Source of the DNA: a virus
Strand: one strand, 5' to 3'
DNA: 64,000 bases
IMG/VR virus record: IMGVR_UViG_3300044970_002308
Location: 1-64,000 of that record
Shown: in pieces, positions 3,181-24,406 of the stretch
Layout: each line of letters begins with the position of its first letter
Position numbering within the stretch: position 1 is the first letter of the stretch
Notes under the pieces: model-generated
What the model was told of the DNA's origin: nothing
Databases searched by the model: none
The model's input: the letters and a program-made list of their open reading frames with translations, nothing else
Program-made: the position numbers and the translations under genes

Positions 3181-6100
3181 TTAATTACACGATGGTATGT
3201 TTAAGACCAAAGCATTGTTATATAAAATATCTAGAGAGTCTGTTTTTAAGATTTGTATTTGACAAATCTGATTATTAAAATTAGCGGCATTTGCTAACGA
3301 TATATTAATAGATCCAGATAATGTCTGAGCCGGAATCGTTAAAGCAGAAGCAGATACTGTGGTGATTGGCGAGGTTCCTTGTACAATAATTCTTGCTATA
3401 TATTCTTGAGCGACAGAAGAGGCCTTATTAGTTAACCAATTCAGTGTAATTCTCGGAGCACCCCCTGAACAGCCATACTCGGTGGATGAGACGGTTACAG
3501 AAGCGGGGATAGACGACTGGGTTGGTGTTGGTGTTGGGAATATTTCACAGGGATTATCCTCAAACATGGGAGGTTCTATGTTTTCTATATCGTAATTACA
3601 TAGATAATCAAAATCTGATTCTATATAACCATTATTACCGAATGTAGTATCAGCAACAGTAAATTCTCCAGACGTGTCTTTGGATCTTCTAGCGACTCTG
3701 AAAGAATAGTTATAGTCGTTACCCCCAAAGCCAACTATATACAGCTTATTATTATAGACTACTAGCGCAGAAATGGTCTCAGACTGTATATTTTGAGCAC
3801 TAAGCCTATTCTTTCTCTGGTTTCCGAATAGATCGGTCTCTGTACCGCCCAAAAGTACAGGAGTCGTATTACCAGATGATAAATTGTATTTGGCTATAAC
3901 GAATCTATAAGATTTACGGGCGTATGATGCTGTGACATCCGATATATCTTGTAGGACTTCTCTCTGCATTGGTTCTGGATCTAAACTATAAGGTATTTGA
4001 TTACGACTAATAGTATCAGCAACGGTTCTAAGTGTAACGGGTCCCTTTCTCGGAATTGGGCTATTGAATTCCGTGTCTGAGATAGTATATTCGTTGTAAG
4101 CTATATTATAACCAACATACCATGATTGACCATCTTCTACAAACATTGACGCATCATATTCTGGTAAAACCGTTACTGCTCCGCTATACGGCTGTGGTAT
4201 CGCAAGTTTCCAAGATCCGTCTTTACCATTTTGATATTTGTATTTGCATACTCCAACCATATTACTATCAGCATATGTTATTGCTAAGTATATGCCTTCA
4301 TTATTTATGAGACATGTTTTGAGCATCGGCTCTGTTTTTATCAAGGGGTCGACAATCAGATCAGAGGGTTGGATCTTAAGAGTACCATTATTATAGAAAC
4401 TAGTATCAACAGAACCATTCAGATTTATGCGGGACACGACAACAACCGAAGATCCTGTTTCGTTTTTATTTTGTGCAACAACTAATAATTTTTGATCTAT
4501 TACAGCAGCCCTTTTAATCTGATACTGAGTAGAAACCGATCCGGCGTCTATGTTCACAATGCCTCCGGTACCAAACGAAGTATTGATTCGACCAGCACCA
4601 GAAATACTAGCTGCGCTATATGTATATTTTTTATTAACTATATCATAAGTTTCTAAGAACAATATAATATTATTATTTACTATTAAAGCGTCCCCTATTC
4701 CTACTATTTTTGTGTCTTCGATAGCAGATATCTCTAAAAAGCCTCTGTTTCCAAAGGTCGTGTCTATAGAACCTGTTGAAGCAAAATGTCTTGATATCAC
4801 AGCGCTACCACTGGTATAGCTAACAACCAGAAACTTACCGCCTTGAGGTAGAATTTTCTTAGCGTTCACACTAACTTGAGCGCCGATATCGTTTTTAAAG
4901 GAATGGGTTGTGGACCCGGATACTCCGAACGAAATATCTAAACCGTTATTTTTAATCTTAGATAAAGATATTTTACTTGCTACATTGGTATACGGAACAC
5001 CAACACAGATCGACGATCCCGCTAATAATAAGGTATTAGCAACTATAGCTGCATCAATTGGCTTATCTATAGAAATTGGACTAGTAAGATCCGTATCTGT
5101 TACATCGCTACAGGCTACAGCAAACTTCTTCTCTTTTCTGGCATCAGAATCAACAAAATTATTAAATCTATATGAACAGCCAGTGTCGCTAGTGGGCGTA
5201 GTGGTAGGTGCTGGGGTTGACGATGGACAAGGTGGACATGGTTTTACTGTAGAGGTGGGAGTAGGTGTTGGTACCGGAGCACAAGAGAACGAAATCTTCC
5301 ATTCTGTGCTTTCGTCACACGCAGACTCCAAGATACAAACAATATATCTCGATCCCCTATTAGGTATTTTAATAGTGTCATATGTACCATAGGTATGATT
5401 TTTGCGATCTATACCCGCACAAAATAAATACTCATTATTATCGTCTTTATCTACAGTACCAATATATCCACTATTGTATAATTCTGTACCATCAAGATCA
5501 TAGAGAGACAGCTTTTCTGGGGATCCATAAAAACTATATGTTAAATTAATCTCATAATTGTTCGTAGATAGTAAATCCACAACGAATTTATTACCGCTTA
5601 ATTTTTTCTTAGTAATTATAGATGGACACAGGAATCTAGGTAAAGAACCCAAGTCTCCTACCCCTGGAATAGATAGGGCTTCTCTGGTGGGCGTGGGTGT
5701 TACAGAGGGTCCGTCTATCACCGGTATGGTGCCAGAGATTGTGAAATTAGGACAATGACAATCTGTGGAATCGCATGTAAGATTAATAGCGTATGTTCTA
5801 AGCAGCGTATTGTCTGTTAGATAAACACTATATATTAAAGGATAATTTGTTAAGCCACATACTTTATTAGATAATTGACTCTGATAGATCAAATAATTCT
5901 TACAGGTGGCGAATCCTGATGAAGAGCTATTGATAGTGCCAAAATTAGGAACCCCTTCTAGCCCAGCCGGTAAATTTAAAGCATATTTATATGTAGTATT
6001 TGGTAATAGTCCACTGATAGTGGTATATATAACTAGATCATCCGAGCCGCAAGATTCAGAGTCATTACCGAGCCTAATGCTGATTTTGGGCAAGCCTCTG

Positions 6101-6714
6101 GTTGGCGATGGAGTAAGTGTTGGGGTTATACTGGGTGTTACAGAAGGAGTAACACTAATAGTGGGCGTAACAGACGCTGTAGGAGTAGGAGTAGGGGTGT
6201 TTGATGATGTTACAGTAATTGTTGGCGTGACTGATGCTGTAACACTTGTGGTAGGGGTTGGTGTGGGTGTATTAGGAACCTGTGTACCAGTTGGAGTATT
6301 TGTTGGGGTCTTAGTGGGTGTTTGCGTTGGAGTCTTGGTTACGGTTGAGGTTGGAGTTGGAGAAGGCTTAGCTGGTGGTAGTCCTCCACAATCTATACCC
6401 AATATATCTTCTGATAGGGTCTTAATAACACCATTATCGTTAATAGTTACGCGGGCTTTGATAACAAAGCTTTCGGAACCTTCTAAATATACTATATTGT
6501 CTATAGATTCTGATGATGCGGAGGCTATTATCTCGGTTGACGCACTAGCGAACGAGGCTGAGCCGGGACCTATGGAGCTATATTCTACTGTGTATGTATC
6601 ATAAGGAATTAGATTCTCAAGCAAAATAGGTATAGAGAGTCCTACAGAGCAACAGCTCGGAGTATCAGCTTTAAGTACTATTTTATTACCGAAACTAATT
6701 TTAACGCTACTCAT
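3181..6714 (-). CDS. Ig-like / Pro-Thr stalk / delta-60-type propeller adhesin
   Basis: This is a 1177-residue mosaic. Residues 1-110 form an Ig-like domain with a Cys-Cys pair ([12 protein letters not shown]) that ends in [10 protein letters not shown] Pro-Thr stalk follows (about 115-205), then a second Ig-like domain ending in a Cys motif (about 206-325) and another short PT linker. Residues about 350-470 resemble a bacterial pre-peptidase C-terminal (PPC) beta domain. After a further short linker, about 510-1080 carries repeats of the kind 'G.iDtsFG..G', for example [14 protein letters not shown] and [13 protein letters not shown], the hallmark of delta-60 repeats, which probably fold as a beta-propeller. 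The last 110 residues are another Ig-like domain. It is probably a large binding protein on the tail tip. Domain names rest on motif recognition only. Confidence 0.75.
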
Positions 6715-6729
6715 TACGAAACCTTCTTC

Positions 6730-8295
6730 TTATATATTAGTTGGCGTAGGTGTTGGGGTCGGGGTGGGCGTAGGAGTCGGAAAACACGTATCGCAATCAA
6801 AAAACAAGATTGTATCTGTTTTTATATTATCTAATAAATCTGTTACCTCTAGCTTCAAGCTAATTTTCTTAAGAGACCCACTATAACTAAATACTGTATT
6901 AATATTTTGAATATTATTACCAGCTATTATCGTTCCGCTTTTAGGCGATATATTAGCAAAATAATCATCAGGAGTAGAAAATAGATAAGAATATGATCTA
7001 CCAATTTTAGCATTTTTAATCGAAGCAACCACACTCTTATACTGACCACAACTCTTCATAAGTTCTTTGGAATCCGTAACAAATTCAACGTCTGGCGCAG
7101 ATGGTCTGCCGCACTCTACCGTAAGAATATCTTCACCATAATTGAAGCCCACATACGGCACATTAGTAGCATCAGCGGGCATTTCATACGACCCCTTCTC
7201 CGTCTCAACACTATTGGGATCAATAGAGGTATTATATAACCAGTTGCAATATCTTGCTCCATCTAACCAGCTCACAAAATTCACTGGCTTATTTTCCATA
7301 TTGGGCTTACAAGTATAGCTAAATGTTTGATTAGTATTCGATGATCTAGTAATGCCGCCTCTAGGGTCTGTGGTCATTTTACTATTGTATAAGCCATATC
7401 TATCAGATTTCGCAGCGACGGAATTTAAAAATACCATATATTCATTATTAGTTACCGGATGCTTTTTCATATAAAAAGAATGCGGAACAGAGCCTATCCC
7501 ATTATCATCCGCATCGTTCATGCCTAGAAAAGATCCTGATACCATGGAAAAAGTAGATGTATCAATACTAAGGGTTTGATTAACCTCGGCAGCAATACGA
7601 AGTCCTAAAGAACTAGACTCAAAAACCGGTTTGTTTTCAACTATTTGTCCAAGTTCAGAGATCGGACTATTCCAAGAACCACCAGTATATGGTTTAAGAG
7701 AGGTCGATATATCATCAAGCCATTCATTAATATTTCCATTTTGATCATAGGTACCATAATAACTCGGCCCGCCATTGGTACCAACGGTAGTCAAATTGCC
7801 GTCTTGACCATTCCAATCGGCTGTATTTCCAAAATTCGCAAAATTGCCCGATGCCCCAGCAGAACCGTCGCCAGAAGTATTACTGGTTACTGCAACAGGA
7901 TTATTATTGCTCATAGTTGCGTATTGAGAATATTCTTCTGTATCTGCATTATAATAAGCGCTCTTATACCATTCATTGCGATTAGGCAGCCAATACTTTG
8001 CGTCTTTTCTATAATCAAGGTCCGTAATTTTGAATTTAATAATATAAGATCTAGACCCCTCTAAAGAAAATCCTATTGGTATATTCATAGGCTGATTTAG
8101 AGACTGTGTCATAACATAGAAATTGTTTTGAGCAAAAACAATAGAGCCTCTAGATATAGAAGATAGTTCGCAATAATATTTATGTCCGGGTATCATACCC
8201 GATACGGTAACTATGCTAGATACTCCGGTAGAACAACATCCTTCGTTATTCACTAAAATATTTTTTTCTGCAAATTTTACAATTAAATTACTCAT
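6730..8295 (-). CDS. Ig-like protein with inserted, apparently circularly permuted FGE/C-type-lectin-like domain
   Basis: The start is taken at MSNLIVKF, whose ATG overlaps the upstream stop as TAATG; a longer start 18 bases upstream is less likely. Residues 1-95 begin an Ig-like domain (Cys-Cys pair in EGCCSTGVSS). Its last strand (GEDILTVECG) appears only after about 290 inserted residues. The insert has the hallmarks of the formylglycine-generating-enzyme/sulfatase-modifying fold in swapped order. First come KYWLPNRNEWYKSAYY, GNINEWLDD, GGSW and GLRIA, which are normally the C-terminal half. Then come SFYMKKHPVTNNEYMVFLN, PVNFVSWLDGARYCNWL and ETEKGSYEMP, normally the N-terminal half. A second Ig-like domain and a PTPTPT tail follow. 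The role is inferred to be ligand binding rather than catalysis. Confidence 0.8.
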   Translation of the reverse strand: MSNLIVKFAEKNILVNNEGCCSTGVSSIVTVSGMIPGHKYYCELSSISRGSIVFAQNNFYVMTQSLNQPMNIPIGFSLEGSRSYIIKFKITDLDYRKDAKYWLPNRNEWYKSAYYNADTEEYSQYATMSNNNPVAVTSNTSGDGSAGASGNFANFGNTADWNGQDGNLTTVGTNGGPSYYGTYDQNGNINEWLDDISTSLKPYTGGSWNSPISELGQIVENKPVFESSSLGLRIAAEVNQTLSIDTSTFSMVSGSFLGMNDADDNGIGSVPHSFYMKKHPVTNNEYMVFLNSVAAKSDRYGLYNSKMTTDPRGGITRSSNTNQTFSYTCKPNMENKPVNFVSWLDGARYCNWLYNTSIDPNSVETEKGSYEMPADATNVPYVGFNYGEDILTVECGRPSAPDVEFVTDSKELMKSCGQYKSVVASIKNAKIGRSYSYLFSTPDDYFANISPKSGTIIAGNNIQNINTVFSYSGSLKKISLKLEVTDLLDNIKTDTILFFDCDTCFPTPTPTPTPTPTPTNI

Positions 8296-9110
8296 TATTC
8301 GCACCCATAGCATTGAATTAGTAATATATCTTCATCTAGTATTATATCAGGATATTTAGCATCAAATACTCTAACCTGTAAACTAACCATATTGCCTTTG
8401 GATGGATTAACGGTCACTACGGTATTTATGTTTTGTTCGGAGAAGCCTGCGGTCACAAAGCCGGTAGCCGGTGACAATAGTGGCGCCGCATCGCTAGTAA
8501 GACAAACAAAGTCGTATTTATATGTAGTTCCGATACGGGCATTTGATATGGTGCAAATAATGTTGAGTTGTTCTCTGCACCTATTGGGAGGATTTACCAT
8601 CATGACCGGACCAGCATCAAAGTTTACACGAGGCATAGATGCAGTGACAGGCCTAGCGGTTGGGGTTGGTGTAGGTACCGCTGGAATAGAAGCACAGCTA
8701 GCGGCTACCATATCAGAGGCAGCTATACCAGTATCTGTCTGATTAATGGTTGCTTTTAAAATATAATTATACTGTGGATCTACGTTAGCTACCGTGGTAA
8801 ATTTTTGCGTTGGTGTCGAAGCAAAGATCGTTATAGCTGCCGGGTCAAACACCTGTCGAGTAGATGACGGGTTCAATAATTCAAATAATATAGTATATTG
8901 TCTACCCGGTATTAAGTTAGAAGCCTCCGCTACAACGATAAAGGAGCCCTTAAGACATTGGGCATTTGGCAAAGTAATAGTTTTAGAATTTCCCTCTATA
9001 CCATAATGAGAAAAATCAAACTTAACAGACAGCGAAGGTGAGGTATTTACTGTTTCTGGCATCGGGGGCTCTTGTTGTGTGCTGGGGAATTTAATAAATA
9101 AATTAGCCAT
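8295..9110 (-). CDS. Two-domain Ig-like virion protein with short Pro-Thr linker
   Basis: This 271-residue protein has two related Ig-like domains (about 25-145 and 160-271) joined by a short linker (VPTPTPTARP). Each domain carries the cluster pattern: a Cys near the first strand, a 'lipGr.Y.y.F' strand (NLIPGRQYTILFE, NARIGTTYKYDFV), an 'f.p..g.i.a' strand and a terminal Cys (MVAASC, LLIQCYGCE). The stop overlaps the start of the next gene (TAATG), which suggests coupled translation. A possible promoter lies just upstream at 9171-9198. No catalytic motif is visible. It is probably a structural decoration or spacer protein of the tail tip. The exact role is unknown. Confidence 0.75.
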   Translation of the reverse strand: MANLFIKFPSTQQEPPMPETVNTSPSLSVKFDFSHYGIEGNSKTITLPNAQCLKGSFIVVAEASNLIPGRQYTILFELLNPSSTRQVFDPAAITIFASTPTQKFTTVANVDPQYNYILKATINQTDTGIAASDMVAASCASIPAVPTPTPTARPVTASMPRVNFDAGPVMMVNPPNRCREQLNIICTISNARIGTTYKYDFVCLTSDAAPLLSPATGFVTAGFSEQNINTVVTVNPSKGNMVSLQVRVFDAKYPDIILDEDILLIQCYGCE

Positions 9111-10950: not shown

Positions 10951-13301
10951 AGACTTACTCCGCTAAATACAATTACGCCGCCGTCTAGATCACTAATAGT
11001 ATTTGTAGACTGCCATTGCGCAATATTACCAGATGTAGAAGTTAAAATATATCCAGAAGGCACTGGTGTTTGACCTATACTAATACTGTCTGTATAAATA
11101 TAGCCACTAACGCTTAAAGATGCATATCTATTTAAATTACCGGACTGTTGAACAATCTTAGGTGACGATCCATTAATAACAGTGGCGGAGACGGCCTCTA
11201 ATCTATTGGACGGCTTAGCATTTACATAAATTGCTGGAGCAACTGATTCGCCATTAATCTGAAAGTCTATAGAATGCTTATTTTGATTAAAAATAGTATT
11301 GGTAAGAGGTCTGCAACTAATTGTTGTCTGAGGCGAAATAGCTGGTGCTCCGGAATTTTCTACACTAAGATTTAAATATCCTCCTTTATTTATGGAGAAA
11401 ATATTACCCGTTCCAGAGATCGGTAGAATCTGATTCAATACGATATTTGTATAGCCATTACTTTCTGTAATGCTATTAATTGTTCTAAAATAATTATTGG
11501 TATTAACACTAATTTTTACCGTATCTCCAACACTAAACTCATTGCTTAAACCGATAGCACTAATAGCTAAAACGTCTCCCCCGTTTTGTATAAAGCAAGA
11601 TCTTATAGGATATTTTTCCCAAGATATATCTAAGCCCGACCATATAAAATTATCTGCGCTTGGTTTTGACCATGCTATTCCAGATCCAGTATGCGTTAAA
11701 ACAGAGCCTTGATCGGATGTGTTATTTGTATCCTTTGCTAATATCGTGTCTGCTCCTATATTCCAATTACCAATAAGAGTAGAGCTAGAAAAATCTATGT
11801 AAGATCCAGACGACTGAGAAAGTGCTGGAGCATTAATCCTGGGAGCAGTAATATTACCGCTAAAAATAGCGCCAGATAAGGACGCTTTAGTTCCAATCGA
11901 AGCTAGATCCGACTTGGTATATCCTGCGCTCTCTAAAATACCAGATTGTCCTACGCTCAGTATACTACCACTAATAGACAATGGCAATAAATGTAAAGAA
12001 TCCGAAACGACTATTTTATCAGCAATCACACCGCTTGTAGATATTTGTAATTGTCTGTTTTTATTTCTAATAGCAACCGAATCTGAATTAACGGTTAAGC
12101 TATCTAATGAGGAACCGCCATTATTTATTGATACAACAAGTTCTCCACTAGGACTAGAGGCTTGAGAAGAAATGGCTCTTGTGCGAATTTGAGAATAGTC
12201 TATCTCTGATCCAACAGAATTTTTGCCTGCTAGATGTATGCTACCAACTAATGACCCACTATCAAGAGTGGTAGAGGGCTTATGATAAAGTACAAGTTTA
12301 GGAGTGGAGCAGGAACTCCTATTCTCCAATCTTATGTTACTATCGCATCCCTGTCCAACGATGTGTAGTAATGTGGCGGGCTTTGCTCCCGACGGCAAAT
12401 TTAAACCTATCTTTCCAGAAGCATCAAAAATACAATTTCTATTACCACTACCATTAATAATAAAGTCTGTATTCTTGGATGTTTTATTAAAAATGGTTGT
12501 ACCAGATCCTGATATGACTGTATCGGCGGATTGTTCCGATCCCGTACCGCCAAATAGCAGGCTATTAGAAGCGTTGCTATAATATATATTTGAGCCACCA
12601 AAAGAGGTAGAATTAACTTTGTATTGAATAGAGCCATTTGGTCCTTGTGGAGTACCCATCAAATCCGGATCTATATTTAGATTAACCTCATTTTTTAGTT
12701 CTATCCAGCCAGAACCATTCGATACCAAAGAGGTGTAGGCATTATCATAATCTATAGTTAAAGAAGCTGAACCATCTATTAAATCTCCACTAGAAGCAAT
12801 AATATGTAAATCCTTATTATTTCTATTATATGCTTTAAAATCTAGTATAAGACCGCGATTACCGGATGCTACGGGCAGAGTACCAGAAGCATGATTGGTA
12901 GATAGATCTACAACGTATGTAGACCTTACGTCTCCAATATTGAACACGCCCGTACTGGTAATTAAATTATTATACCCAAGATCCACAGAATACTGATTAG
13001 GATATACGAAAAACGTTTTTGTCCCACCGAAACTAAAAAATACTAACTCATCATTGTTAGACGAACCAGAAACCTCTTCTCTTTCCACTATAGTGGTAGA
13101 TATTACTTTGCCTATACCGGCTTCCCATTCTGTTGCACCAGTGGATAAAAGATTTTTGGCAAAATATGGTATAAAATGACCTATTAAAGAAGCGTCGAGA
13201 CCAACAAACGTCGGCTCTGGTGCCTGTAAAATAAATCTTCCATTGACTATTTCGAAAGATGCGCCAACATTATCTGGAATTTTAATATATGAATTTATCA
13301 T
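10947..13301 (-). CDS. Large tail-fibre / distal tail protein
   Basis: This 784-residue protein is encoded immediately after the tape measure gene, with a four-base ATGA overlap. That position usually holds distal-tail or fibre genes. Residues 1-230 form a unique N-terminal beta-rich region (MINSYIKIPDNVG...). Residues about 240-440 have fibre-shaft character, including 'GKIGLNLPSGAKPATLLHIVG', which resembles the 'iGig...P...LhV.G' signature of phage fibres. The C-terminal part (about 540-784) contains repeated 'y.n..psnrLe'-like beta segments and ends in GGVIVFSGVSL. No catalytic site is recognised. The N-terminus may attach to the tail tip while the rest forms a trimeric shaft; this is inferred from fibre-like composition. 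Confidence 0.7.
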   Translation of the reverse strand: MINSYIKIPDNVGASFEIVNGRFILQAPEPTFVGLDASLIGHFIPYFAKNLLSTGATEWEAGIGKVISTTIVEREEVSGSSNNDELVFFSFGGTKTFFVYPNQYSVDLGYNNLITSTGVFNIGDVRSTYVVDLSTNHASGTLPVASGNRGLILDFKAYNRNNKDLHIIASSGDLIDGSASLTIDYDNAYTSLVSNGSGWIELKNEVNLNIDPDLMGTPQGPNGSIQYKVNSTSFGGSNIYYSNASNSLLFGGTGSEQSADTVISGSGTTIFNKTSKNTDFIINGSGNRNCIFDASGKIGLNLPSGAKPATLLHIVGQGCDSNIRLENRSSCSTPKLVLYHKPSTTLDSGSLVGSIHLAGKNSVGSEIDYSQIRTRAISSQASSPSGELVVSINNGGSSLDSLTVNSDSVAIRNKNRQLQISTSGVIADKIVVSDSLHLLPLSISGSILSVGQSGILESAGYTKSDLASIGTKASLSGAIFSGNITAPRINAPALSQSSGSYIDFSSSTLIGNWNIGADTILAKDTNNTSDQGSVLTHTGSGIAWSKPSADNFIWSGLDISWEKYPIRSCFIQNGGDVLAISAIGLSNEFSVGDTVKISVNTNNYFRTINSITESNGYTNIVLNQILPISGTGNIFSINKGGYLNLSVENSGAPAISPQTTISCRPLTNTIFNQNKHSIDFQINGESVAPAIYVNAKPSNRLEAVSATVINGSSPKIVQQSGNLNRYASLSVSGYIYTDSISIGQTPVPSGYILTSTSGNIAQWQSTNTISDLDGGVIVFSGVSL

Positions 13302-16300
13302 ACTGATGAACTACCTTTAAGTATTTGATTAGATTGTTCCCCAAGAGCATTCTCTGTAGTAACATTAAGCCTACTGACGGCAGTATTGATCGAAGAAACA
13401 ACATATTCTTTCATTCCTTCGCTCATTCCCTTTAGTGCCTCTCCGCCATTTATTATAACCTCTACTTTATGTTGTGCTGTAATTTGAATATTTTCTGGAA
13501 TAGCCAAACCACTGATAGTATTAGCCACATTCTGTAATCTAATTGTAAAATTATCAATAGCCTTTTGACTCTTATCATCTAAATTAATATTTAGTAATGC
13601 TGCATTTTGAGCAAAAGCGCGATTAAAATTTTCCAAAGCACTTACAGCCGATGGGGCCAAGCCCAGCTGTAAATTAGATACACCTACAGTCTTATTTGTA
13701 GACGATACATTTGGGATATTAGAGTGATATTGAGGTATAATAATACCCCCTTGATTAAGATAATTAACCATTCCACCAGTAGAATATTGGCCACTATTAA
13801 TAGCTTTTAAGACAGGTAGATGTTTTTGAGTGGCCGCTCTATTGACCACAAATTCTCCGGGGGTCAACATGGCTGGAACGGTATCGGTGCCTCTGGGCTG
13901 ATAATCAACTAGAGTGCCTGTTTGAGCATAGATTATGCCCCCTCTGGCTTTCTTCTGCGGCTTTTTGACTTCCTCTGCTAAGGCTTTTCTCTTTGCTTGG
14001 AGCTGTAACGCCATATTATAATCTGGTAATTTTCCAAATGCTCCATTCGTTAATAGCTGTAAAGCAGAATTGGCGTCGGGGTATAGGCTATCAAAACCAC
14101 GTCTCCATTTATCATTGCCGGCTTGACCATCACCATTCACAAAAGGATCCAAAAAAGTATTGTAGAAAGATCGAACCTTCTTGATAGTATCAATAACGCC
14201 CTGGTTAACCTTTTGATTAGCAAGCTCTTTCTCTAAAATACCAAAGAGATTATTTCTTGTTTCCGTAGGAAACATAGAGTATGGATTCAGTATCTTTTTA
14301 CCCAAATCTAATATGGTTTTGGGAGAAGTTCTATCAGATTGTTTATTCCAAGTTGTTTTCTCTAGTCCAGTAGCCTCAAAAATCGATTGGTTTTTATCCC
14401 CAAAAGCCCCCTCGATTGCCTTTTGATTGTCTTTATTTATTTCTTTATCCAAGATATCTGCCCCCAGACCCTGGGACATCATTCCTTGCTTAGCTAAAAA
14501 CTTTGCGTATTGATTAACTTTGTCTGGTATTGTAGCGTCTGGTTTACCGTCAAAGCTAACGCCTAGCATCGAAGACAATCCTTGAGAATCTCCTGCTCCT
14601 AGTTTTAAAAATGTTTGTGCGGCAGCTCCTATTGCTCCCCAAACATTATACAACGCCTCTGGCGGAGTCCTCCCTTTCATTTTTTCCATAACAGCTTGTC
14701 CAAAAAACTTTTGCCCACCAAATAAAAGATTACCGTATGGCAATATGTCTGTCGCTTTTGTTAAGGGCATCAGCTTCATATTGTATGCCGATAAAACGCC
14801 GCTTATAGGAGCTAGTACTTTCTGTATAATGCCCCTAGCTATACCCAACGGATTTTCTATATTTGCTTGTTTTATACCAGCATCAGTGCGTTTATCAGTA
14901 GTTTCAGCTGCCACAGCTCCTGCTATTAGTTCTTTTTTATTAAATAATCCTTTAATTTCATTAATGTAATTAGTAGCATTAAAGTTACCGCCAAGAACAG
15001 CTGTCTTTGGCATATAAGCATTATTTTTTGTGTCTTCGGAATAATCTAGCGCACCAAGATCAGTGCTATTTATTTTTTGCACAGTGGCGTAAGGCACTGG
15101 CGGCAAATTATCTGTATTGAGACCTCCTGTCACTGCATTAATTATTGGTTGAATACGCCCTTTTAAGGTTTCGATACTATCCGCATATATCGATCTACCA
15201 ATTAAATTAACAGGGTCTAAATCTTTGAATGGGTTTAGCGGCTGTTCTTTGCTGTTGGCATCTAAATCAGCAACAACATATTTAATGGCTCCTAATGACT
15301 GATCTAATGTTTTATTGGTGCCAAATCCTCCTTGAATAGTTTTGTAGTTAAATTTCATGAACTCATCTTCGACGGAACCTGATGTAACTTTTATATTAGA
15401 TGTATTATTTTTTTGATATTCTCCCTTTAGGTTATTGATAGCATCTACATGATTAAATCCAGCAGCTATCCACGGTAGTGATTTTTGCGCTGGATTTATA
15501 GGTATAAAATTACTACTGTTTTCAGCATAGCTATTGGTGGGCGGCGCAGGCTGATAATTTTTAAAAGAATTAGCTAAATTATTCCATTTATCGGCCGTTA
15601 AATTAAATAATGTTATTGGTGGTTTAACATTGTCTTTACCCTTAATTTCTGTCTCATCGAATTGAGCCGAAAATATTGCACCAGATAATAGCTGTTGTAA
15701 TTTGTTAATATATGTTTTATTCTTTAAGGAAGAATCGGTTTCTTTCAATGGTTCAGAAATCGAACCGTCTGCCTCGATCTCTGGAATCTTAGTTTGAGAC
15801 AAAGCATCAAATACTCTTGATAATGACTGGATATTGTTTTGCATTATCGGACCAGTAGCCTTAGCCATACCGTCATAATTAGTGACGTATTTAGATAATG
15901 CCATGCCTATAGACGGATCAACAGTATCATGCTTCATATTGGATAACCCGGCAACCACCTTCATGTCCGGAGAAATGATAGTAGTGGCTGTTGATCTATT
16001 TGTAAAACCATAAGGGTTTCCAGCATTAGTATTTTGACCAGAAGACCCTTCTCCTTCTAGATCTGCTACTGAGTATAGGCCATAAAGACCGTTAGTGGTT
16101 TTTGTTAGACCGCTCAGTGTTACTAGTGGCACACTAGACAATCCTCTATTGACATATTTACCCACTTCAATAGTTGGCTCTATTTTAGGTCTATTATCCG
16201 CGTCTACTTTTGTGGCTATTTTTTTTGAACCTGTGTCAATAGACCCCATAAACGTACCGGCATCAGAACTTTGCACAACAAATCTTTTAAGTTTTAACAG

Positions 16301-19300
16301 CGTTTCTAATTTATTTTTATAGTCCTCTATTTGATTTTTTGTGATATGTTTTTTTCTTTGAATATCTCTCTCAGATATTACATTATCAAAAAAATCTGAT
16401 TGCGGCACATAACCCACATCTATGGGACCTGTAAAAGTAGTTCTTTTCTCAATCGTAGGTCGATCATCCTCTGTAGTCATACTAATAGTATCATAAGATG
16501 CTCCTAAACTCGCATTGGCGCCGATACTCACCAAAGGCTTCCGTCCAACTTTAGGACTGAACCAATCTGAAATATCTCCTGGTGCCGGATTCGAGGCGTA
16601 AAAATACCCCGGCAGAGCGACGGCCTTTGTCATGTGGTCATATGGATTAGCGTTAAGAGATAATATGTCTGGATATTGTGTCGCTGTCTCTTGTTGTTGA
16701 ATCCCGGCCTGCTTTTCCGCATCTTGCTTTTGATCCAATCCCCAACCTCCGCCAAATACTAAACCTCCTTGATTATAGTACTGTACTCTTCCACCATTCG
16801 AGTATCCATTGTTAATAGATTTTAAAAGAGGTAGATTTTTTTGAGTAGCAGATCTATTGACAACAAATTCTCCTGGGGTCAACATAGCCGGTACTGTATC
16901 CGTCCCCTTTGGAGCAAAATTAATTAACTGACCCGCGGAAGCATATACAACACCTCCTCTTGCGAGCATCTCTGCCTCAGCTGCTGCTGGCTTCTTATCC
17001 TCCCTATTATTTTTAACAACAGTAATTAAATTTTTAATATTATCATTAATATCTTGCAGTTGCCTGCTTTCAAAGTTTAATGAGACACCTCCGATAGCTG
17101 TAGCTAATTTAACAGCGGCGGTGTCAGAATTATTCTCCGCAATAAGCTGATTCAAGGCAGCTAACTGTTCATTTGCAAATGCTTGTTCAGCTAGCGCTTC
17201 TCTATATATACCTATAGCTTCTGCCATTTGTGGATCGGCTTCTGGATTTCTTAAAGAATCTATCACTTGCTGCATCATTGGCGAAGAGTTTATGCCAGAT
17301 TCTCTAAGCATAGATTCTAGAACATTGGCCTTCATACCACTCTGCTTATCTCCGAGAAACGGCATGATCATGTTAAAAGCTTCTAGGCTGTCGCGTCTCT
17401 GGTCGGCATTGGTCCCAAAATTAGCCCGACCCTTCATATTGTTATCTAATCTAGCCAAGGCCTGATTAAATTTATTAATTTCTGCTGGGGTGCTGGTGAC
17501 CAATTTCTCAATGATGGCTACTCCAGCTTGTTGCTTCTGTTGAATCTCCGACATTTTATTTAACGCTGCACTAGCAACAGTAGTGTTTTCGCTAAGGCCT
17601 TTAAGCGCATCGTATGACTCTCTTAACGCAACACTTGTTTCCCTCAGCCTTCCCTGCATCATCATAAATTCGTCTTTACCAGAAAAACCCTTTTGAGCGG
17701 CGGCGTCGGATCTTGATTGTTGAGATTGTCTGGTCAATTCTAAATCTTGTATCTGTCTTCTAATATCTACAGCAGATGTTGGGCCTCCGGTCTGAGACGC
17801 AGTTGCAGCTCTAGTGTCAGCCACTACGCTTTGTAATGATACTGTTTTACCTAAAACTCTATTAAGCTCATTTTGCCCAGAAACCAGGGTATCAGTAGCT
17901 CGTCTTAGCTTTTGATTACTATCAATTTGTAGATCTATCAATTGATTAGTTGTATTGGCATAATCGTTTAGTGCATTCTGCCAGTTTTCTAGAGCTCGTA
18001 TCGCAGTTTCTTGAGCTCTCTTTGCACTGTCTACAACGTTTCCGAGTTGTGGAATTTTTTCTACCAATTGACTAAAATCAATTTTATCATCCCCAGATTT
18101 CCTCATATCCTGTACGGCGCTCTTTACCTCGCCAGATAATTTAGTTGATAGGTCTGGTGGCAGCTCTAAGTCGTTTAAAGCTTTAAATATAGCTTGGTCT
18201 AATTTGATACCAACGGCCTCGTTACTTGCGGATGGATTATTTTTTAAAGTACTATTGATTGTAGATAATAACGTATCCTCAAGTCTACCAGAAACCTGTA
18301 ATATCCCTTTCATTGACTTAGCTTCGCTGCCGAACATAGAAGCTGCCTGGTCTACAGCTCCCGCATTCGCATTAGCCCCATAAGCTCTACTATTTTGCAA
18401 TACGTTTATACTATCTAGCTTTACAGATCCTACCCTGGCAGATCCTGATAGTGCTGAGGTGGTGAGCTCTGCACTAGCGGTAAGCTTATCTAGCGCAAAA
18501 GCATTCGCCATAATAGACTGTTCCATATTTTGAAACATTCTCTCTAAGCTATTTTGTAAAACAATAGTAGACTTGCTAAGAGCTTCTAGATCCATCTCTT
18601 TTAGAGTTTGAGACTGAATTTCTCTGGCTTTAGCGTCTGCTACTGTCGCAATAGTACTATCTATGAGAGCTTTCTTTTTATTTTCTTCTAACGAAGTATT
18701 ATTTTGTATAGTTAGAATTTGTTCTTGTAGCGCTGCGTCTGCAAGAGCTAAGCTTTTAGTGAAACCAGCAAAATCTTTGTCCGATTTGAGACCTTCAATA
18801 GAAGATCCTGATCTGATTTTACTTGTTATAAATTGTCTGGAGGCATCAGCCGCTCCGGTAAAATTCTTCGCTCTTTCTCTAGATAGTTCTGGTATATTTT
18901 GACTCATTGAAAACGCCCGGTTGGATTTAGCGTCTTCCCCACCAAACATCTCTGTAGAACGCAAATATGCCATTATCCCTTGTTTATCCAATATTTGAGA
19001 TCTTTCTGCTGCCGCTCGTTTCTCTGAGCTCGTACCATTATCGGCAGTGTCAAAAAAATTAAATAGTCCTCTTTTTACTGTTTGTGAGTCTGAGTCTGTG
19101 ATAGCTTGGGCTTGTTTAGTGGCTTCTACTACATTTTTCTTGGCGTCTGTAGCAAATACGTTGTTCTTTATGTCTTTAGAGAATTTATCTAGGGACTTGG
19201 CTGCTGCCTCAAGCGTTTGCTCTAATTTATCTACCTTTAAACCTCTATTAAAATCATTTGCTGCATTTTCTGCGTCTGTAAATGCTTTAGCTAATCCTGC

Positions 19301-22300
19301 TGCTCCGGCTACTATACCAGCAGCTATGCCAACAGGACCCATAGAGGCAAGCATAGCTGCGCTACCAATAGCTGTGCTACTACCAGATATCATAGCATTG
19401 TTCTTAGCCTGCTCTGCTGTTTTTGGGTCTGCTGTCGTAAACTGATCTGCGATCATTGGTATGGCAAAGGAAAGCCCCATAGCCGCATTTCCTATTTTAC
19501 TACCTATACCTCCGCCAGCCGATCCTGCCATGCTATCTCTAAAAGCCTGACCTCGTAAACCTTGAGCCCTAGCATCTCTAGCCTGGGCCATCATATTTGC
19601 TCCTCTGCTGCCAGAAGGTATTAGTCCTCCTCCTGATCCGCCGCCAAAACCAGCAGACTTTTGTGCGGCCGTCGCCATTTTACTAATTCCCTGAGTAATT
19701 TTTTGAAATAGCGTTGGCTGTTGTTGTGCCGCAGTGGCGCTTTGTTTAGCAAAATTAGCAATACGAATTCTAGCAGCAGCGTCATCAGCAGCGGCTTGTT
19801 GAGCAATCTGCATCTTAGCATTGATTTGCTGTACATAATTTTGTTGAGCATTTGCCGTTAATGATTGATTAGCTCTAGCAAATACTTTGTTAGCTCTATC
19901 TTGAACCTTTTGTTTTTCTGCTGGATCGGACGCGGCATCGTATCTGTCTTTGAATCTTGCTGCTACTCTGTCTCTGAGGGAGCTTCTATCATTCGATAAT
20001 TGAGTTCTCATCATTTGTTTTACTGAACCCGCTCCGCCAGCTCGTTCTCTGCCTAATACCGATTGAACGGCTTCGTTTCTAGCATTATCTATAGCGCTAG
20101 GAGTTCTGGTAACAACACCCTTTTGGCCAGGCAGCAAAGGACCATAAGCATTAGTATCAACAGCTAATCTTGTTCTAGAAGCTCTCCTTACAACCCTATT
20201 AGCTCTTTGATTGTCTCTATATTCTTTTTCTTTTGCTTGATCAAGAACGCCTCCGGTAGTAATATCCACTCCTCTACCGGCTAACACATTCATACCTCTG
20301 TAACCAACGCTCTGAGATTGTTTTTTAAGACTCGCAGCCGTTTGTTGAGCCGCCTGAGACATAGACTCAATAGCTTTAGTTGCCTCGGCCAATGCTTTGG
20401 CAGCAGACATGCCCTGATCCATCAATTGTTTGGCTATTTGAACCCTACCCTGCCCTGACATAGCCATCTTAAGAGGAGAATCGGAACCTCTAGCAAATCT
20501 TTGTACTATTCCACCACTATGATATTTATTTAATGTATGAAGATTGCCATATCCTATAGCTTTTGCGGATTTTCTATTAATAACATATTCCCCTTCCTGA
20601 GCCATGATGGGGACTTCTCCGCCAGAAGCCCTAGCTACTCTATTTATTCTAGGCCCTTTAGTTCTTAGTGCTTCAAGAGCGGGTAATTTGCTACCTCCTC
20701 TGGTAAATACCATATTTTGAACAGGTATACCGAATAATTGATTAATATGCTCAGCTAATCCAGGAGTTCTACTAGATTTACTAATTATAGATAAGTTTTT
20801 CGGCTGTATAACGCCCTTTTTGACTAGCTCTTGTAATTGTTTGCCAAATTGTGTTAATCTAGCACTTTGAGCATCTTTGATTCTTGCTTGGGGGTCTCTG
20901 AAATATTTGGTTAAAACCGCTTCTTTTTGTTCTGGAGTTTTTGCGCTTGCATATGCTGCATCTCCAGTGGTTCTTTGCAAAGTCCTATCATAATCAATAG
21001 CCCCTCCTCCATTACGTATTATTTCATATAATGGAGAACCAGGTTTCATACCAGGCATCGGCAACATAGATCCAGGAGCGTTGGGGAGATCGTCTACTAA
21101 AGGCATGCCTCCTTTAGCCATAGCTATAAAACCACCAAGAGCTCTAGATAATCTTTTAGTCCTTAACTTATCTCTACGACCTCTATCAAATTGTCCTTTT
21201 GTAAGTTTTCTTTTAGCCTGTTCTTTTGTTGCATCATTTGTGGCGTCTGTTAATGCTTTAGGATCTACTCCAAAAAGGTTTGCTAATTTTTTACCTAATC
21301 CCATATTAAAATCAATAGCTTTTGATTTAGGATCATATGGAGCCCCAGCAACAGCCAATCCGCTCTCAAACATCAATCCAGATAAATTGGGTAACTGTTT
21401 AGTTAAAATTTCACTAATTCTTTTTTGGTCCGTAATAGGTGTTGTTCCGGCGGCTTTGGCAATAGCTTGACCTATTTGAGCTACTATGCTTTCTGATTGA
21501 GAACGTATAATATCTTCCACTTGTGTCGCTAGATCATTTGGTAGACTGCCGGTTTGCAGGGTCGCTGGGACCCCTCGTAATCTTTGTCTTCCTGTTTTAT
21601 CTTTAAGTCCCGGAGTCGTAACGGTAGAAGAGGACGTATCGCCTCGTAGTCCAACAACGGCTAATTTTCTGTTTTTAGCCCTATTGGCAATATTCTCTTC
21701 GGATGTTTTGGTGATAGTTCTTTTTTCTTGTAGATCTTTAATGATCTTTGCTCTGGTCTGTTCAGACCCCTTTGCTCTTGGATCTAGAAAACGTCTAAGC
21801 TCTATAGGAATATTGACTCCTAGCCTTTCTGCTTCCTTAAGTAAATCAGCCTTACCCATGGCCTCCAAAGGCTTAGAGGTACCTCTGGCAAATTTTTGTA
21901 TAAGACCTCCAGATGCAAAAGTTGAGCCGAAAGATTTTCCTAAAACCTTTTTAACAGCTGGGAGGGTTGTACGACCACCAACCTCTCTAGGATTGGTGAG
22001 CGCCTGGTACTGCATTAATTCATCCCACAAACTACCGACCTGAGTATTAATTTTAGATAAATATGGTTTAATATTCTTTTCCAGAATAAAGTCTAATTCT
22101 GAGTCTGATCTTAGAGTCTGAGGTACAGATCTAGACTTAACACCTCTCAACAAGGCCGTCTTAAGACCCTCAAGCTTTTTTGATGCAAGCAACTCTTTGA
22201 ATATAACAGATGGTACGCCTCCATCGCCAAAAAGTTGTTCGGGGGATCTTTTTGAGATGTCTTCGACTAACTCTTTTTTAGTAACTCCAGTTTTTCCTGT

Positions 22301-24406
22301 CTTTCTTCTAAGTCTCTGATTTATTAACGTAGATATATTGGGTTCAAAATTAATTTGTCTTTCTGTTTTACCACTCACCACCTTTAGTGAACCGGTGCCT
22401 CTTTTTTTCGCTGCCATCGCCTCTCGATAACTAAGAGGAACTTTTGGTCCTATGTGAGTTCTTTGCGTCTCCTTGAGACCGGAAGAAGATCCTCCGCGGA
22501 ATCTTTGCACAGAACCGCCGTATTGATAACCCGAAGACCCTAAAATACCTTCTGGTCCACCGAGTGCTTCCGTAGCCTTTTTTCTTATAACAAAACTACC
22601 TTCTGGAAGAGTAGTATAAAAACTATCGGTATTGCCAGATCCTGGAACCAATCCAACCTTACCTCCTTTGGCCATAGGTTTTCTGTCTGCATAATTCATT
22701 TTTCTTAATTTAGATACGCCTACTTCTTTAACCGCTTCAGGATATACCACGGCCTCTCCCGGCATCAAAGCAACTGGAACATCTACTGGTCCTCCTTTTT
22801 TATATCTACTTATATAACCCCCATAAGCATTTCTTCTAGGAGCAGCTGCTCCCCCAGCGTTGCCTCTACGAAGACCTCCTATAAAACCAGAACCATATTG
22901 AGTCGCTACACTAGCTCCTCTAACGGCCATCATCAATCCAAGAATAGGCAAAACTCCTTTAACGCTATCCGCTACTTGAATCAAACCACTAGCGAGCTGC
23001 AGCGCTCCCTTTGCCAGTGTCTGAAAAGTATCTGAGCCACCAATATCTCTTACAAGAGCAGTAAATTCTTCTCTTACTTTGGCTATCTGATTAGCCAGGG
23101 ACAACTGGGCTGTTGCCGCGTCTGCCGCCAAAGACCCCTGCCCAGTCTGTGCTACCTTCAAAGCTTCCTGGGCTGTTCCGAATTGCTGAATTAATGGAAT
23201 AACCTTACCGATCTGACGGAAGCCGCCAAGCTCCTCAACAATCTGAGAAAACTTTAAATCTCTCGGATCTATTTGATTTAATCCTCTAGACAATAACTCA
23301 ACAGCCTTATATGCTCCAACGAACTTGCCCTCTGCATCGGTTAGATTAACCCCGAATTCTTTCAGAGCCTCTATAGTTCCTCCTCTTTGAACTCTAGTAA
23401 AAATAGTACGTAAACCAGTAGCAATAGTTTCTGCGCTTTCACGAGTAGTGGCTCGTATACTAGTAAATACCGCTATAAACTCATTAAGGGCATCGGTACC
23501 CTGACTAACTCCATTACTAGCAGAAGCGAACACTCCACCAGTACGCTGAATAGCGGCTATAATATCGCTGGCTTCTACTGCGAATCTGGCAGCAACCGAG
23601 TTAACAGAGCCTAGCGCTTTTTCTAGATCAGACGCTCCAATGCCGAACTGTCTCATCAAAGCAATAGAGCCTTCCACCGTTTTATTCATATCATCAAAAG
23701 ACGGAGCTAAAGCACTAAGAGCCAATGCTTTTAATGCTCTCTCGGTATCTTTGGCGCTTAAACCGGCCTGGGCTAATGTTGATGATACTTTGATAAGGTC
23801 TCCTGATGCTACTCCAAAATCAACAGATAATGACGTAATAGTATTCGATAGTCTCTTAAGACCATCTGCAGATTCGCCTGTAACCTGTTGCAGCTTAACG
23901 AATTCTTTATCAAACTCGATAAATGCGGCTATGCCTTTATTGATGGCTCCTGTAAAAGAAAATACGGCGCCGGTGGCTAAGCTAAATGCAGCAAATCTTC
24001 TAATAGCTAAGGCCGACTGTCTTCCGAACTCTTCCATTTCTGTTCTAGCAACATTTAACTGTCTGGCCGCTGTGGTGCTAGTAGCTCCGACTCTTTGTGT
24101 AGCGGTAACGACATTATTGAGCTGTCTTGGTAAATTAGCCACTCCGGCATTACCGACCGCCTGAGAAAAATCTCTAATAGCATTTGCAGCATTTCTGGCC
24201 GCTGTCTGAGTAGTGCCAAAAGTATTGTTAAGATTTCTTAAAGCAGCATTGAGCTGAGTAACATTGCGTGAGGCATTTTGGTCCAATCGTAAGTTCACAT
24301 CTGCGGAAATTGACCCCAATTGTCTTCTAATATCAGATACAATATTTCTAACATTAGATGGTCCTCTTAAATTTAGCTGGGCTGTTAAATTAAACGATTG
24401 TGACAT
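13298..24406 (-). CDS. Giant tail tape measure protein
   Basis: At 3702 residues this is by far the largest gene. After an N-terminal helical region (1-130), residues about 160-400 match the phage-tail minor-protein/tape-measure core (FVKLQQVTGESADGLKRLS, TRESAETIATGLRTIFTRVQ). Long Ala/Gln-rich coiled segments fill much of the rest. A hydrophobic Gly/Ala stretch (GPVGIAAGIVAGAAGLAKA, about residue 1700) may be membrane-active. Five 'GE.vv..' modules recur (VALMPGEAVVYPEAV, LPEGSFVIRKKATEA, AQEGEYVINRKSA and two copies of PAMLTPGEFVVNR). Between them lie globular insertions, one HAD-like at about residues 1130-1255. The protein sets tail length during assembly and is probably ejected or membrane-inserted at infection. 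It follows a terminator hairpin and no clear Shine-Dalgarno precedes its ATG. Confidence 0.93.
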   Translation of the reverse strand: MSQSFNLTAQLNLRGPSNVRNIVSDIRRQLGSISADVNLRLDQNASRNVTQLNAALRNLNNTFGTTQTAARNAANAIRDFSQAVGNAGVANLPRQLNNVVTATQRVGATSTTAARQLNVARTEMEEFGRQSALAIRRFAAFSLATGAVFSFTGAINKGIAAFIEFDKEFVKLQQVTGESADGLKRLSNTITSLSVDFGVASGDLIKVSSTLAQAGLSAKDTERALKALALSALAPSFDDMNKTVEGSIALMRQFGIGASDLEKALGSVNSVAARFAVEASDIIAAIQRTGGVFASASNGVSQGTDALNEFIAVFTSIRATTRESAETIATGLRTIFTRVQRGGTIEALKEFGVNLTDAEGKFVGAYKAVELLSRGLNQIDPRDLKFSQIVEELGGFRQIGKVIPLIQQFGTAQEALKVAQTGQGSLAADAATAQLSLANQIAKVREEFTALVRDIGGSDTFQTLAKGALQLASGLIQVADSVKGVLPILGLMMAVRGASVATQYGSGFIGGLRRGNAGGAAAPRRNAYGGYISRYKKGGPVDVPVALMPGEAVVYPEAVKEVGVSKLRKMNYADRKPMAKGGKVGLVPGSGNTDSFYTTLPEGSFVIRKKATEALGGPEGILGSSGYQYGGSVQRFRGGSSSGLKETQRTHIGPKVPLSYREAMAAKKRGTGSLKVVSGKTERQINFEPNISTLINQRLRRKTGKTGVTKKELVEDISKRSPEQLFGDGGVPSVIFKELLASKKLEGLKTALLRGVKSRSVPQTLRSDSELDFILEKNIKPYLSKINTQVGSLWDELMQYQALTNPREVGGRTTLPAVKKVLGKSFGSTFASGGLIQKFARGTSKPLEAMGKADLLKEAERLGVNIPIELRRFLDPRAKGSEQTRAKIIKDLQEKRTITKTSEENIANRAKNRKLAVVGLRGDTSSSTVTTPGLKDKTGRQRLRGVPATLQTGSLPNDLATQVEDIIRSQSESIVAQIGQAIAKAAGTTPITDQKRISEILTKQLPNLSGLMFESGLAVAGAPYDPKSKAIDFNMGLGKKLANLFGVDPKALTDATNDATKEQAKRKLTKGQFDRGRRDKLRTKRLSRALGGFIAMAKGGMPLVDDLPNAPGSMLPMPGMKPGSPLYEIIRNGGGAIDYDRTLQRTTGDAAYASAKTPEQKEAVLTKYFRDPQARIKDAQSARLTQFGKQLQELVKKGVIQPKNLSIISKSSRTPGLAEHINQLFGIPVQNMVFTRGGSKLPALEALRTKGPRINRVARASGGEVPIMAQEGEYVINRKSAKAIGYGNLHTLNKYHSGGIVQRFARGSDSPLKMAMSGQGRVQIAKQLMDQGMSAAKALAEATKAIESMSQAAQQTAASLKKQSQSVGYRGMNVLAGRGVDITTGGVLDQAKEKEYRDNQRANRVVRRASRTRLAVDTNAYGPLLPGQKGVVTRTPSAIDNARNEAVQSVLGRERAGGAGSVKQMMRTQLSNDRSSLRDRVAARFKDRYDAASDPAEKQKVQDRANKVFARANQSLTANAQQNYVQQINAKMQIAQQAAADDAAARIRIANFAKQSATAAQQQPTLFQKITQGISKMATAAQKSAGFGGGSGGGLIPSGSRGANMMAQARDARAQGLRGQAFRDSMAGSAGGGIGSKIGNAAMGLSFAIPMIADQFTTADPKTAEQAKNNAMISGSSTAIGSAAMLASMGPVGIAAGIVAGAAGLAKAFTDAENAANDFNRGLKVDKLEQTLEAAAKSLDKFSKDIKNNVFATDAKKNVVEATKQAQAITDSDSQTVKRGLFNFFDTADNGTSSEKRAAAERSQILDKQGIMAYLRSTEMFGGEDAKSNRAFSMSQNIPELSRERAKNFTGAADASRQFITSKIRSGSSIEGLKSDKDFAGFTKSLALADAALQEQILTIQNNTSLEENKKKALIDSTIATVADAKAREIQSQTLKEMDLEALSKSTIVLQNSLERMFQNMEQSIMANAFALDKLTASAELTTSALSGSARVGSVKLDSINVLQNSRAYGANANAGAVDQAASMFGSEAKSMKGILQVSGRLEDTLLSTINSTLKNNPSASNEAVGIKLDQAIFKALNDLELPPDLSTKLSGEVKSAVQDMRKSGDDKIDFSQLVEKIPQLGNVVDSAKRAQETAIRALENWQNALNDYANTTNQLIDLQIDSNQKLRRATDTLVSGQNELNRVLGKTVSLQSVVADTRAATASQTGGPTSAVDIRRQIQDLELTRQSQQSRSDAAAQKGFSGKDEFMMMQGRLRETSVALRESYDALKGLSENTTVASAALNKMSEIQQKQQAGVAIIEKLVTSTPAEINKFNQALARLDNNMKGRANFGTNADQRRDSLEAFNMIMPFLGDKQSGMKANVLESMLRESGINSSPMMQQVIDSLRNPEADPQMAEAIGIYREALAEQAFANEQLAALNQLIAENNSDTAAVKLATAIGGVSLNFESRQLQDINDNIKNLITVVKNNREDKKPAAAEAEMLARGGVVYASAGQLINFAPKGTDTVPAMLTPGEFVVNRSATQKNLPLLKSINNGYSNGGRVQYYNQGGLVFGGGWGLDQKQDAEKQAGIQQQETATQYPDILSLNANPYDHMTKAVALPGYFYASNPAPGDISDWFSPKVGRKPLVSIGANASLGASYDTISMTTEDDRPTIEKRTTFTGPIDVGYVPQSDFFDNVISERDIQRKKHITKNQIEDYKNKLETLLKLKRFVVQSSDAGTFMGSIDTGSKKIATKVDADNRPKIEPTIEVGKYVNRGLSSVPLVTLSGLTKTTNGLYGLYSVADLEGEGSSGQNTNAGNPYGFTNRSTATTIISPDMKVVAGLSNMKHDTVDPSIGMALSKYVTNYDGMAKATGPIMQNNIQSLSRVFDALSQTKIPEIEADGSISEPLKETDSSLKNKTYINKLQQLLSGAIFSAQFDETEIKGKDNVKPPITLFNLTADKWNNLANSFKNYQPAPPTNSYAENSSNFIPINPAQKSLPWIAAGFNHVDAINNLKGEYQKNNTSNIKVTSGSVEDEFMKFNYKTIQGGFGTNKTLDQSLGAIKYVVADLDANSKEQPLNPFKDLDPVNLIGRSIYADSIETLKGRIQPIINAVTGGLNTDNLPPVPYATVQKINSTDLGALDYSEDTKNNAYMPKTAVLGGNFNATNYINEIKGLFNKKELIAGAVAAETTDKRTDAGIKQANIENPLGIARGIIQKVLAPISGVLSAYNMKLMPLTKATDILPYGNLLFGGQKFFGQAVMEKMKGRTPPEALYNVWGAIGAAAQTFLKLGAGDSQGLSSMLGVSFDGKPDATIPDKVNQYAKFLAKQGMMSQGLGADILDKEINKDNQKAIEGAFGDKNQSIFEATGLEKTTWNKQSDRTSPKTILDLGKKILNPYSMFPTETRNNLFGILEKELANQKVNQGVIDTIKKVRSFYNTFLDPFVNGDGQAGNDKWRRGFDSLYPDANSALQLLTNGAFGKLPDYNMALQLQAKRKALAEEVKKPQKKARGGIIYAQTGTLVDYQPRGTDTVPAMLTPGEFVVNRAATQKHLPVLKAINSGQYSTGGMVNYLNQGGIIIPQYHSNIPNVSSTNKTVGVSNLQLGLAPSAVSALENFNRAFAQNAALLNINLDDKSQKAIDNFTIRLQNVANTISGLAIPENIQITAQHKVEVIINGGEALKGMSEGMKEYVVSSINTAVSRLNVTTENALGEQSNQILKGSSSV
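13790..13940 (-). repeat. Tape-measure 'GGxVx...PGEFVVNR' module, second near-identical copy
   Basis: This segment encodes ARGGIIYAQTGTLVDY, GTDTVPAMLTPGEFVVNR and QKHLPVLKAINSG. It is almost the same as the module at 16790-16945. The two copies flank about 2.9 kb of tape-measure sequence. The motif is common in tape measures of this general type; its function is not known to me. Confidence 0.8.
16790..16945 (-). repeat. Tape-measure 'GGxVx...PGEFVVNR' module, first near-identical copy
   Basis: This segment encodes ARGGVVYASAGQLINF, GTDTVPAMLTPGEFVVNR and QKNLPLLKSINNG, followed by a GGRVQYYNQGG tail. It matches the copy at 13790-13940 at most positions. More diverged relatives lie at about 20545-20625, 22560-22650 and 22720-22850. 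Confidence 0.8.

Follow-up and report, generated by a model that had tools for sequence, protein, structure and literature searches.

Circularly permuted FGE-type C-type lectin domains recur in viral records and include an insert in a phage tail-module protein

Circular permutation of the formylglycine-generating-enzyme (FGE) type of C-type lectin (CLec) fold is real and recurrent in viral records, where at least two registers occur. One such domain is encoded in the window, the 64,000 nucleotides analyzed here, which are bases 1-64000 of an 80,668-base IMG/VR virus record. The 527-residue protein that carries it comprises an Ig-like domain split by the permuted FGE/CLec domain, a second Ig-like domain and a (TP)n tail, and its ORF lies downstream of the tape-measure gene and hence in the tail module. 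The insert is probably non-catalytic and serves a phage tail protein as its receptor-binding, or adhesin, head. The thirds of the fold are designated N (FVxVGD ... VTNxEY ... CNWLHNG), M (YxIPxxNEWYKAAYY ... YATQSD) and C (ADWNGQDG ... GNVxEW ... GGSW ... GFRxA); the features of the window are as follows.

13298..24406, minus strand: tape-measure gene, 3702 residues (phrog_28, E 5e-29)
6730..8313, minus strand: tail-module ORF, 527 residues
8014..8295, minus strand: Ig-like domain 1, part before the insert, ending YIIKFKITDLD; aligns with the N-terminus of the paralogue at 3181..6714
7138..8013, minus strand: circularly permuted FGE-type CLec domain in the order M-C-N, residues about 101-392 (Pfam, segment HMMs, AlphaFold2)
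7849..8013, minus strand: M third, YRKDAKYWLPNRNEWYKSAYY ... TSNTSGDGSAGAS, residues 101-155 (segment HMM)
7573..7848, minus strand: C third, residues 156-247 (segment HMM; fold match to human FGE 219-374 and Mtd 247-380)
7540..7605, minus strand: putative joint from native C-terminus to native N-terminus, GLRIAAEVNQTLSIDTSTFSMV (from the order of the thirds)
7138..7572, minus strand: N third, residues 248-392 (Pfam profile 34-109; segment HMM)
7108..7137, minus strand: return strand (GEDILTVECG) of the hairpin in Ig-like domain 1; matches a ten-residue stretch of the paralogue
3181..6714, minus strand: paralogue, N-terminal Ig-like domain with unbroken hairpin (alignment)

Within residues ~101-392, YWLPNRNEWYKSAYY, GNINEW, GGSW and GLRIA stand ahead of SFYMKKHPVTNNEYM and NFVSWLDGARYCNWL, confirming the swapped motif order given in a preliminary description of this DNA. 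The Pfam FGE-sulfatase profile (PF03781) matches the protein in two stretches (E 2e-12), and the whole-protein score of 47.7 bits exceeds the curated cut-off of 23.3, placing the protein in the family by sequence; the piece matching profile 112-208, taken alone, scores 21.6 bits, under that cut-off. In a record-wide Pfam search, profile 112-208 falls at 7669-7989 and profile 34-109 at 7234-7488, so that on the minus strand the later half comes first, and the canonical arrangement of N half before C half is not found. Segment HMMs detect the N, M and C thirds once each in the ORF, with the M-third match proper covering residues ~104-150. The C third contains GNFANFG..ADWNGQDG ... GNINEW ... GGSW..GLRIAAEVNQT, in which the loop from GGSW to GLR is the counterpart of the ligand region in CLec-fold proteins, and the N third contains LSIDTSTF ... 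SFYMKKHPVTNNEYM ... NFVSWLDGARYCNWLYN ... GFNY. Judged by these profile matches, the window domain is a permuted relative of PF03781 and not a canonical member.

The insert lies within the last hairpin of the first Ig-like domain, between YIIKFKITDLD and GEDILTVECG, as had been proposed; the joined flanks align with the paralogue at 3181-6714, in which both halves of the hairpin follow one another without an insert. Residues 8-100 joined to 391-406 score 142 against the paralogue and 115 without the return strand, a gain that was equalled in none of 2000 shuffles of the C part. With seven further Ig-like stretches from the window as targets, adding the return strand raised the score by 0-15. 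The paralogue also bears on the start of the ORF, which may truly be the ATG at 8295: from there the protein would start MSNLIVKF..., and the paralogue starts MSSVKISF.... As the Ig part mostly has pLDDT below 50 in the AlphaFold2 model of the protein, the placement of the insert in the hairpin is a result of sequence comparison. A scan for orthologues with an empty Ig site, using the neighboring 784-residue protein, recovered only two records identical to the window, and the empty site is therefore known from paralogues.

Other proteins of the window also have domain matches. In the tail region, the product of 57344-60814 has fn3 and DUF285 matches and, by eye, a C-terminal trypsin-like stretch (GDSGSP) for which Pfam gives no protease call, and that of 31179-32096 contains a proprotein convertase P-domain (PF01483, E 3e-8). 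One of two adjoining proteins (33945-34934 and 32704-33948) has a weak GH130-like match below the cut-off; its neighbor resembles TPR and FkbM-type methyltransferase sequences by eye, with no Pfam match.

The permuted arrangement is widespread among the viral matches. Six further loci from the first viral scan (41-47% identity) are also permuted, and are opened at a different loop. In total, 147 viral loci, drawn from the viral scans (for the L010 C-N-M query, the best 80 of 126 stretches) and from four loci of the window's own record, were grouped by shared 150-mers into 72 clusters, and the order of thirds was read from the printed output of five-segment HMMs. Among the matches listed, 59 clusters contain C-N-M domains and three contain M-C-N domains (the window, L067 and L211); L067 has both, giving 61 of 72 clusters with a permuted domain, a proportion that is not a frequency for phage FGE domains overall, since the queries were themselves permuted. 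A permuted phage version, for which the preliminary description knew no precedent, is thus not unique. The remaining clusters comprise eight that are canonical only, two that are partial and one unparsed mosaic; several of the canonical ones, on short contigs, may be bacterial. The mosaic is a 1788-residue ORF (L227:2698-8061) with repeated FGE segments in no simple order.

The register differs between groups: the bacterial domains examined are N-M-C, most phage relatives found are C-N-M, and the window, L067 and L211 are M-C-N. In Pfam coordinates, M-C-N domains are opened at about position 110 and C-N-M domains at some point between about 125 and 160. In all 12 records with permuted domains that were searched with the Pfam model, the later part of the profile precedes the earlier part within the same ORF.

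AlphaFold2 predicts closed domains for both registers. The C-N-M domain of L010 was modeled from a 65-row alignment with pLDDT 97.3 and pTM 0.94. In the model of residues 1-412 of the window protein, for which Ig paralogue rows were left out of the alignment, the insert forms one closed domain with pLDDT about 92 (mean of ten-residue blocks, residues 101-380). The insert is thus predicted to be a single FGE/CLec-like domain and not two separate incomplete ones, in line with the original proposal. Comparison with known structures used an aligner bound to sequence order. In the best rows for the window model, residues 101-247 fall on the final portion of four structures, CalU17, TvpA, FGE and Mtd, with Z reaching 10.8. 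Residues 106-246 align to CalU17 148-307 (Z 10.8, rmsd 2.4, 118 residues); the match to human FGE 219-374 (Z 8.5) takes in residues from about 103 to 249, and that to Mtd 247-380 (Z 6.5, rmsd 3.1, 102 residues) takes in 104-247. In the best rows for the C-N-M model, residues 97-290 lie on the opening two thirds of CarF, TvpA and FGE (Z up to 6.5), with 97-278 aligned to CarF 2-184 (Z 6.5, rmsd 3.7, 150 residues) and 100-291 to TvpA 64-245 (Z 5.8). Lower rows for this model, of EgtB and OvsA types (Z 3.2-4.5), cover ranges that begin at residues 10-17 of the model; restriction to one arm is thus a property of the best rows and not of all. By itself a Z score of 6.5 would be weak; what carries the argument is that the arms complement each other and that the sequence matches the family. 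The arm-complementary matches agree indirectly with permutation, and the predicted models have the three-dimensional FGE/CLec fold.

An assembly chimera or frame artefact, in which two FGE pieces were wrongly joined, would mimic such an order, and all the viral sequences are metagenomic. The window, however, is identical over 12,870 bases to two other IMG/VR records (L005 and L006), which, with the existence of permuted relatives, makes the misassembly considered at the outset unlikely; the 61 permuted clusters among the matches listed fall into two consistent registers, the frames are open and the closed fold is predicted with high confidence. The chimera reading is largely refuted, and we give it almost no credence. 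A domain swap, in which half-domains complete each other between neighboring fibre chains instead of closing as a permuted monomer, is favored by the shortness of the joint and by the habit of phage fibres, which are usually trimers. The monomers nevertheless close with high confidence in AlphaFold2, though a monomer prediction is compatible with a swap, and some ORFs hold little beyond one domain (L035, 315 residues; L050, 336 residues). We regard a swap as improbable and retain the closed permuted monomer.

The hairpin had been suggested as the reason for the permutation, an idea that the wider family does not bear out. Of 84 non-redundant C-N-M domains, 28 start no more than 45 residues into the ORF, another 31 come after a linker rich in T/P/S/G, and 25 show neither feature; 21 of the 84 stop within 30 residues of where the ORF ends. 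They are also cut at another loop, and on the 203-row tree described below the M-C-N domains of the window and L067 stand, with weak support, among these differently cut C-N-M domains. The hairpin thus does not explain the permutation.

Several ORFs show more elaborate arrangements. The 3754-residue ORF L106:879-12140 (with L034 on the same contig) has five permuted FGE domains between linkers, and its record (G019) has 20 Pfam FGE matches. In L068:1-3537, L071:3587-7930, L074:3587-7408 and L075:4021-7944, 268-348 residues of other sequence are found at the C-N joint, and in L028:11161-15327 about 310 residues are inserted inside N. A complete canonical FGE domain is nested in the N part of a permuted one in L056:3396-12584 (residues about 839-1413), the nested domain matching Pfam 35-254 over residues 1045-1293. 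In L007:2-4399 a permuted domain is directly followed by a canonical one that belongs to a planctomycete clade, a hint of the host and of capture.

The closest sequence relatives are SUMF1/FGE-sulfatase (PF03781) proteins of Planctomycetota/Verrucomicrobiota, single or head-to-tail, with a best-segment identity of at most 58%. These are genes of bacterial genomes and, unlike the phage domains, canonical: against bacterial genome contigs, the L010 C-N-M query gave canonical N-M-C ORFs at 80 of 80 loci (the best 80 of 348 stretches), which serves as a control because a contiguous permuted copy would be expected to outrank canonical loci. A C-N-M profile search of 199 planctomycete genomes (E 1e-40) gave matches in eight, none over the full 293-position profile; the widest covers 59-286 and lies in a multi-domain ORF, up to 12 candidates having been scored in each genome. 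Matches at E 1e-10 in six named bacterial genomes were canonical or tandem, none permuted.

Deposited collections yielded little. Five tblastn queries against 50,697 deposited phage records (E 1e-5, 1e-3 and, for three, 0.01) returned no relative, and as the canonical query L081 was likewise without a match, this shows only that close kin are missing from the collection. Predicted viral structures gave no match (best E 5.4) with a sequential aligner, which handicaps permuted folds, and solved structures searched by sequence gave weak half-domain matches (5aoh, E 0.0013; 5hha, 0.11). In PHROGs, phrog_18508 ("kinase") matches window protein residues 246-363 (E 1.4e-9) in one stretch covering only profile positions 18-117 of 266; FGE-like phage proteins are therefore already present in that collection.

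For phylogenetic analysis, 230 parsed domains were reduced to 206 without duplicates and short segments and to 204 at 97% identity. L136, a truncated tandem misread as M-C-N, was left out, as were later two L056 rows from the nested arrangement that had been misread as canonical. On the 203-row tree of re-ordered domains, 115 rows group together (SH-aLRT 93), comprising 100 of the 101 bacterial rows, 14 canonical phage rows and one permuted row (L125); the bacterial row L167 is placed among phage rows. The permuted rows do not form one group. In AU tests (LG+G4, with 61 of the 201 usable rows), placing every permuted domain in one clade gave p 0.37, or 0.90 without L125, and the M-C-N pair gave 0.88; the constrained tree outscored the free tree in two of the three tests, so the tree searches were shallow. 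These tests do not reject a single clade of permuted domains, nor do they establish it. L125-L127 are C-N-M domains that group with bacterial canonical ones, and may have come to this register by a second, separate origin.

Head-to-tail proteins of the order NMC-NMC occur in bacteria, and in G046 a phage C-N-M query (22-275) aligns across the boundary of two tandem copies. The joints of bacterial tandems are about as short as phage joints in 10 of 15 measured. Such sequences could indicate how a register shift might arise. Origin from the tandem proteins found here was considered and rejected, since it predicts that the C segments of phages should be nearer to copy 1, and they are not. On average, phage N and C segments are nearer to single-domain than to tandem proteins.

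In the CLec fold, the two termini run antiparallel as strands, and what lies between strands 3 and 5 makes up the putative ligand site (PMC6328139). Across the permuted family, the GGx..GFR loop is 24% identical over 347 close pairs, in which the N and M segments are 57-78% and C1 67% identical; residues 50-57 before the loop (32%) and the last 21 residues (45%) are further variable stretches. The loop is equally variable in bacterial canonical relatives. Its variability was therefore discarded as a phage-only sign: it marks the variable site of the family and is by itself no indication of a phage arms race.

The parallel first drawn with targets of diversity-generating retroelements (DGRs) such as Mtd holds for the fold and the variable loop only, given the equal variability in bacteria and the lack of RVT_1 in all 40 viral records searched; these records were chosen from those at hand, include that of the window and may be fragments. 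Diversification by a DGR was rejected on the RVT_1 result in those 40 records. Mtd of Bordetella phage BPP-1 (1yu3 and others) likewise has an FGE-type CLec fold in a phage receptor-binding protein, and differs in being DGR-diversified, no RVT_1 having been found in the window's record. Its variable region is at the very C-terminus, as stated in PMC6328139, whereas the matching region in the window protein is internal (residues 211-239 of 527) and the order is permuted. TvpA of Treponema denticola (2y3c) aligns with the window model at Z 10.8 (rmsd 5.8), one of the best structural matches; like TaqVP of a Thermus aquaticus prophage, it is described as a DGR target whose variable region is C-terminal (PMC6328139, PMC5006420).

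Two cysteines between GG and GFR occur in none of 156 domains, bacterial ones included; the other 45 of the 201 rows have no delimitable GG..GFR region, and in L067 the GG from which it was delimited lies too early. Cys is absent from the window region, GGSWNSPISELGQIVENKPVFESSSLGLR. FGE has two catalytic cysteines shortly before GFR, and the lack of the pair argues against FGE catalysis. It also bears on whether the protein could be an enzyme (FGE-, EgtB- or PvdO-like) carried as a metabolic gene. The Pfam family is shared with FGE, and a SUMF1/EgtB/PvdO-family gene of another phage is called an auxiliary metabolic gene in PMC9769972; against this, besides the missing Cys pair, the domain is embedded in an Ig-like protein encoded in the tail module, and an enzymatic role is very improbable. 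A role as structural spacer or decoration, without receptor binding, has rather more to recommend it, given that Ig-like domains also decorate virions and that up to five copies occur per ORF (L106). Such a role would not account for the most variable loop lying at the position of the ligand region in Mtd and TvpA, and we consider it unlikely. A variable loop at the ligand position, no Cys pair and no RVT_1 in the records searched together make a non-catalytic receptor-binding head the best reading.

For such a head, receptor binding combined with freedom of insertion is the likely mechanism. The antiparallel terminal strands of the CLec fold would allow fusion by a joint of ~12-15 residues. 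New ends would be opened in one of two loops: M|C, as in most phage relatives found, or N|M, as in the window, L067 and L211. So permuted, the unit would enter and leave through a surface loop, and could be plugged into an Ig hairpin, at an ORF start, between linkers or as arrays, its variable loop being left to face the host. The window protein would be located on the virion and bind a ligand of the host surface, and either pluggability or orientation may be the gain from permutation. The permuted form may have originated by head-to-tail duplication with trimming of both ends.

More broadly, the domains may constitute a phage-specific permuted FGE/CLec adhesin family of at least two registers, a plug-in receptor-binding module of uncultivated phages with whole domains in its loops and at the joint and ligand-loop diversity without a DGR; we hold the case for this wider proposal to be evenly balanced. 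A search of the open literature, outside which lay preprints and most subscription journals, found no report of a permuted FGE/CLec domain. Concanavalin A is a natural circular permutation that arises post-translationally; it is also a lectin with moved termini, with another fold, and here the permutation is in the gene. Eight contigs of 201 to 323 kb have permuted FGE domains. In a survey of 224 jumbo phages, FGS (FGE) domains are reported as not found (PMC7824862).

Profiles in canonical order give mere half-matches to a permuted domain. As a natural permutation series of one fold, these proteins offer tests of how terminus placement relates to folding, insertion and ligand display. If the wider proposal is true, permutation re-orients and inserts a binding head, in a manner not known for the described DGR targets, with their C-terminal variable region. 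If the domain is a receptor-binding head, it would be a pointer to host recognition by many uncultivated phages.
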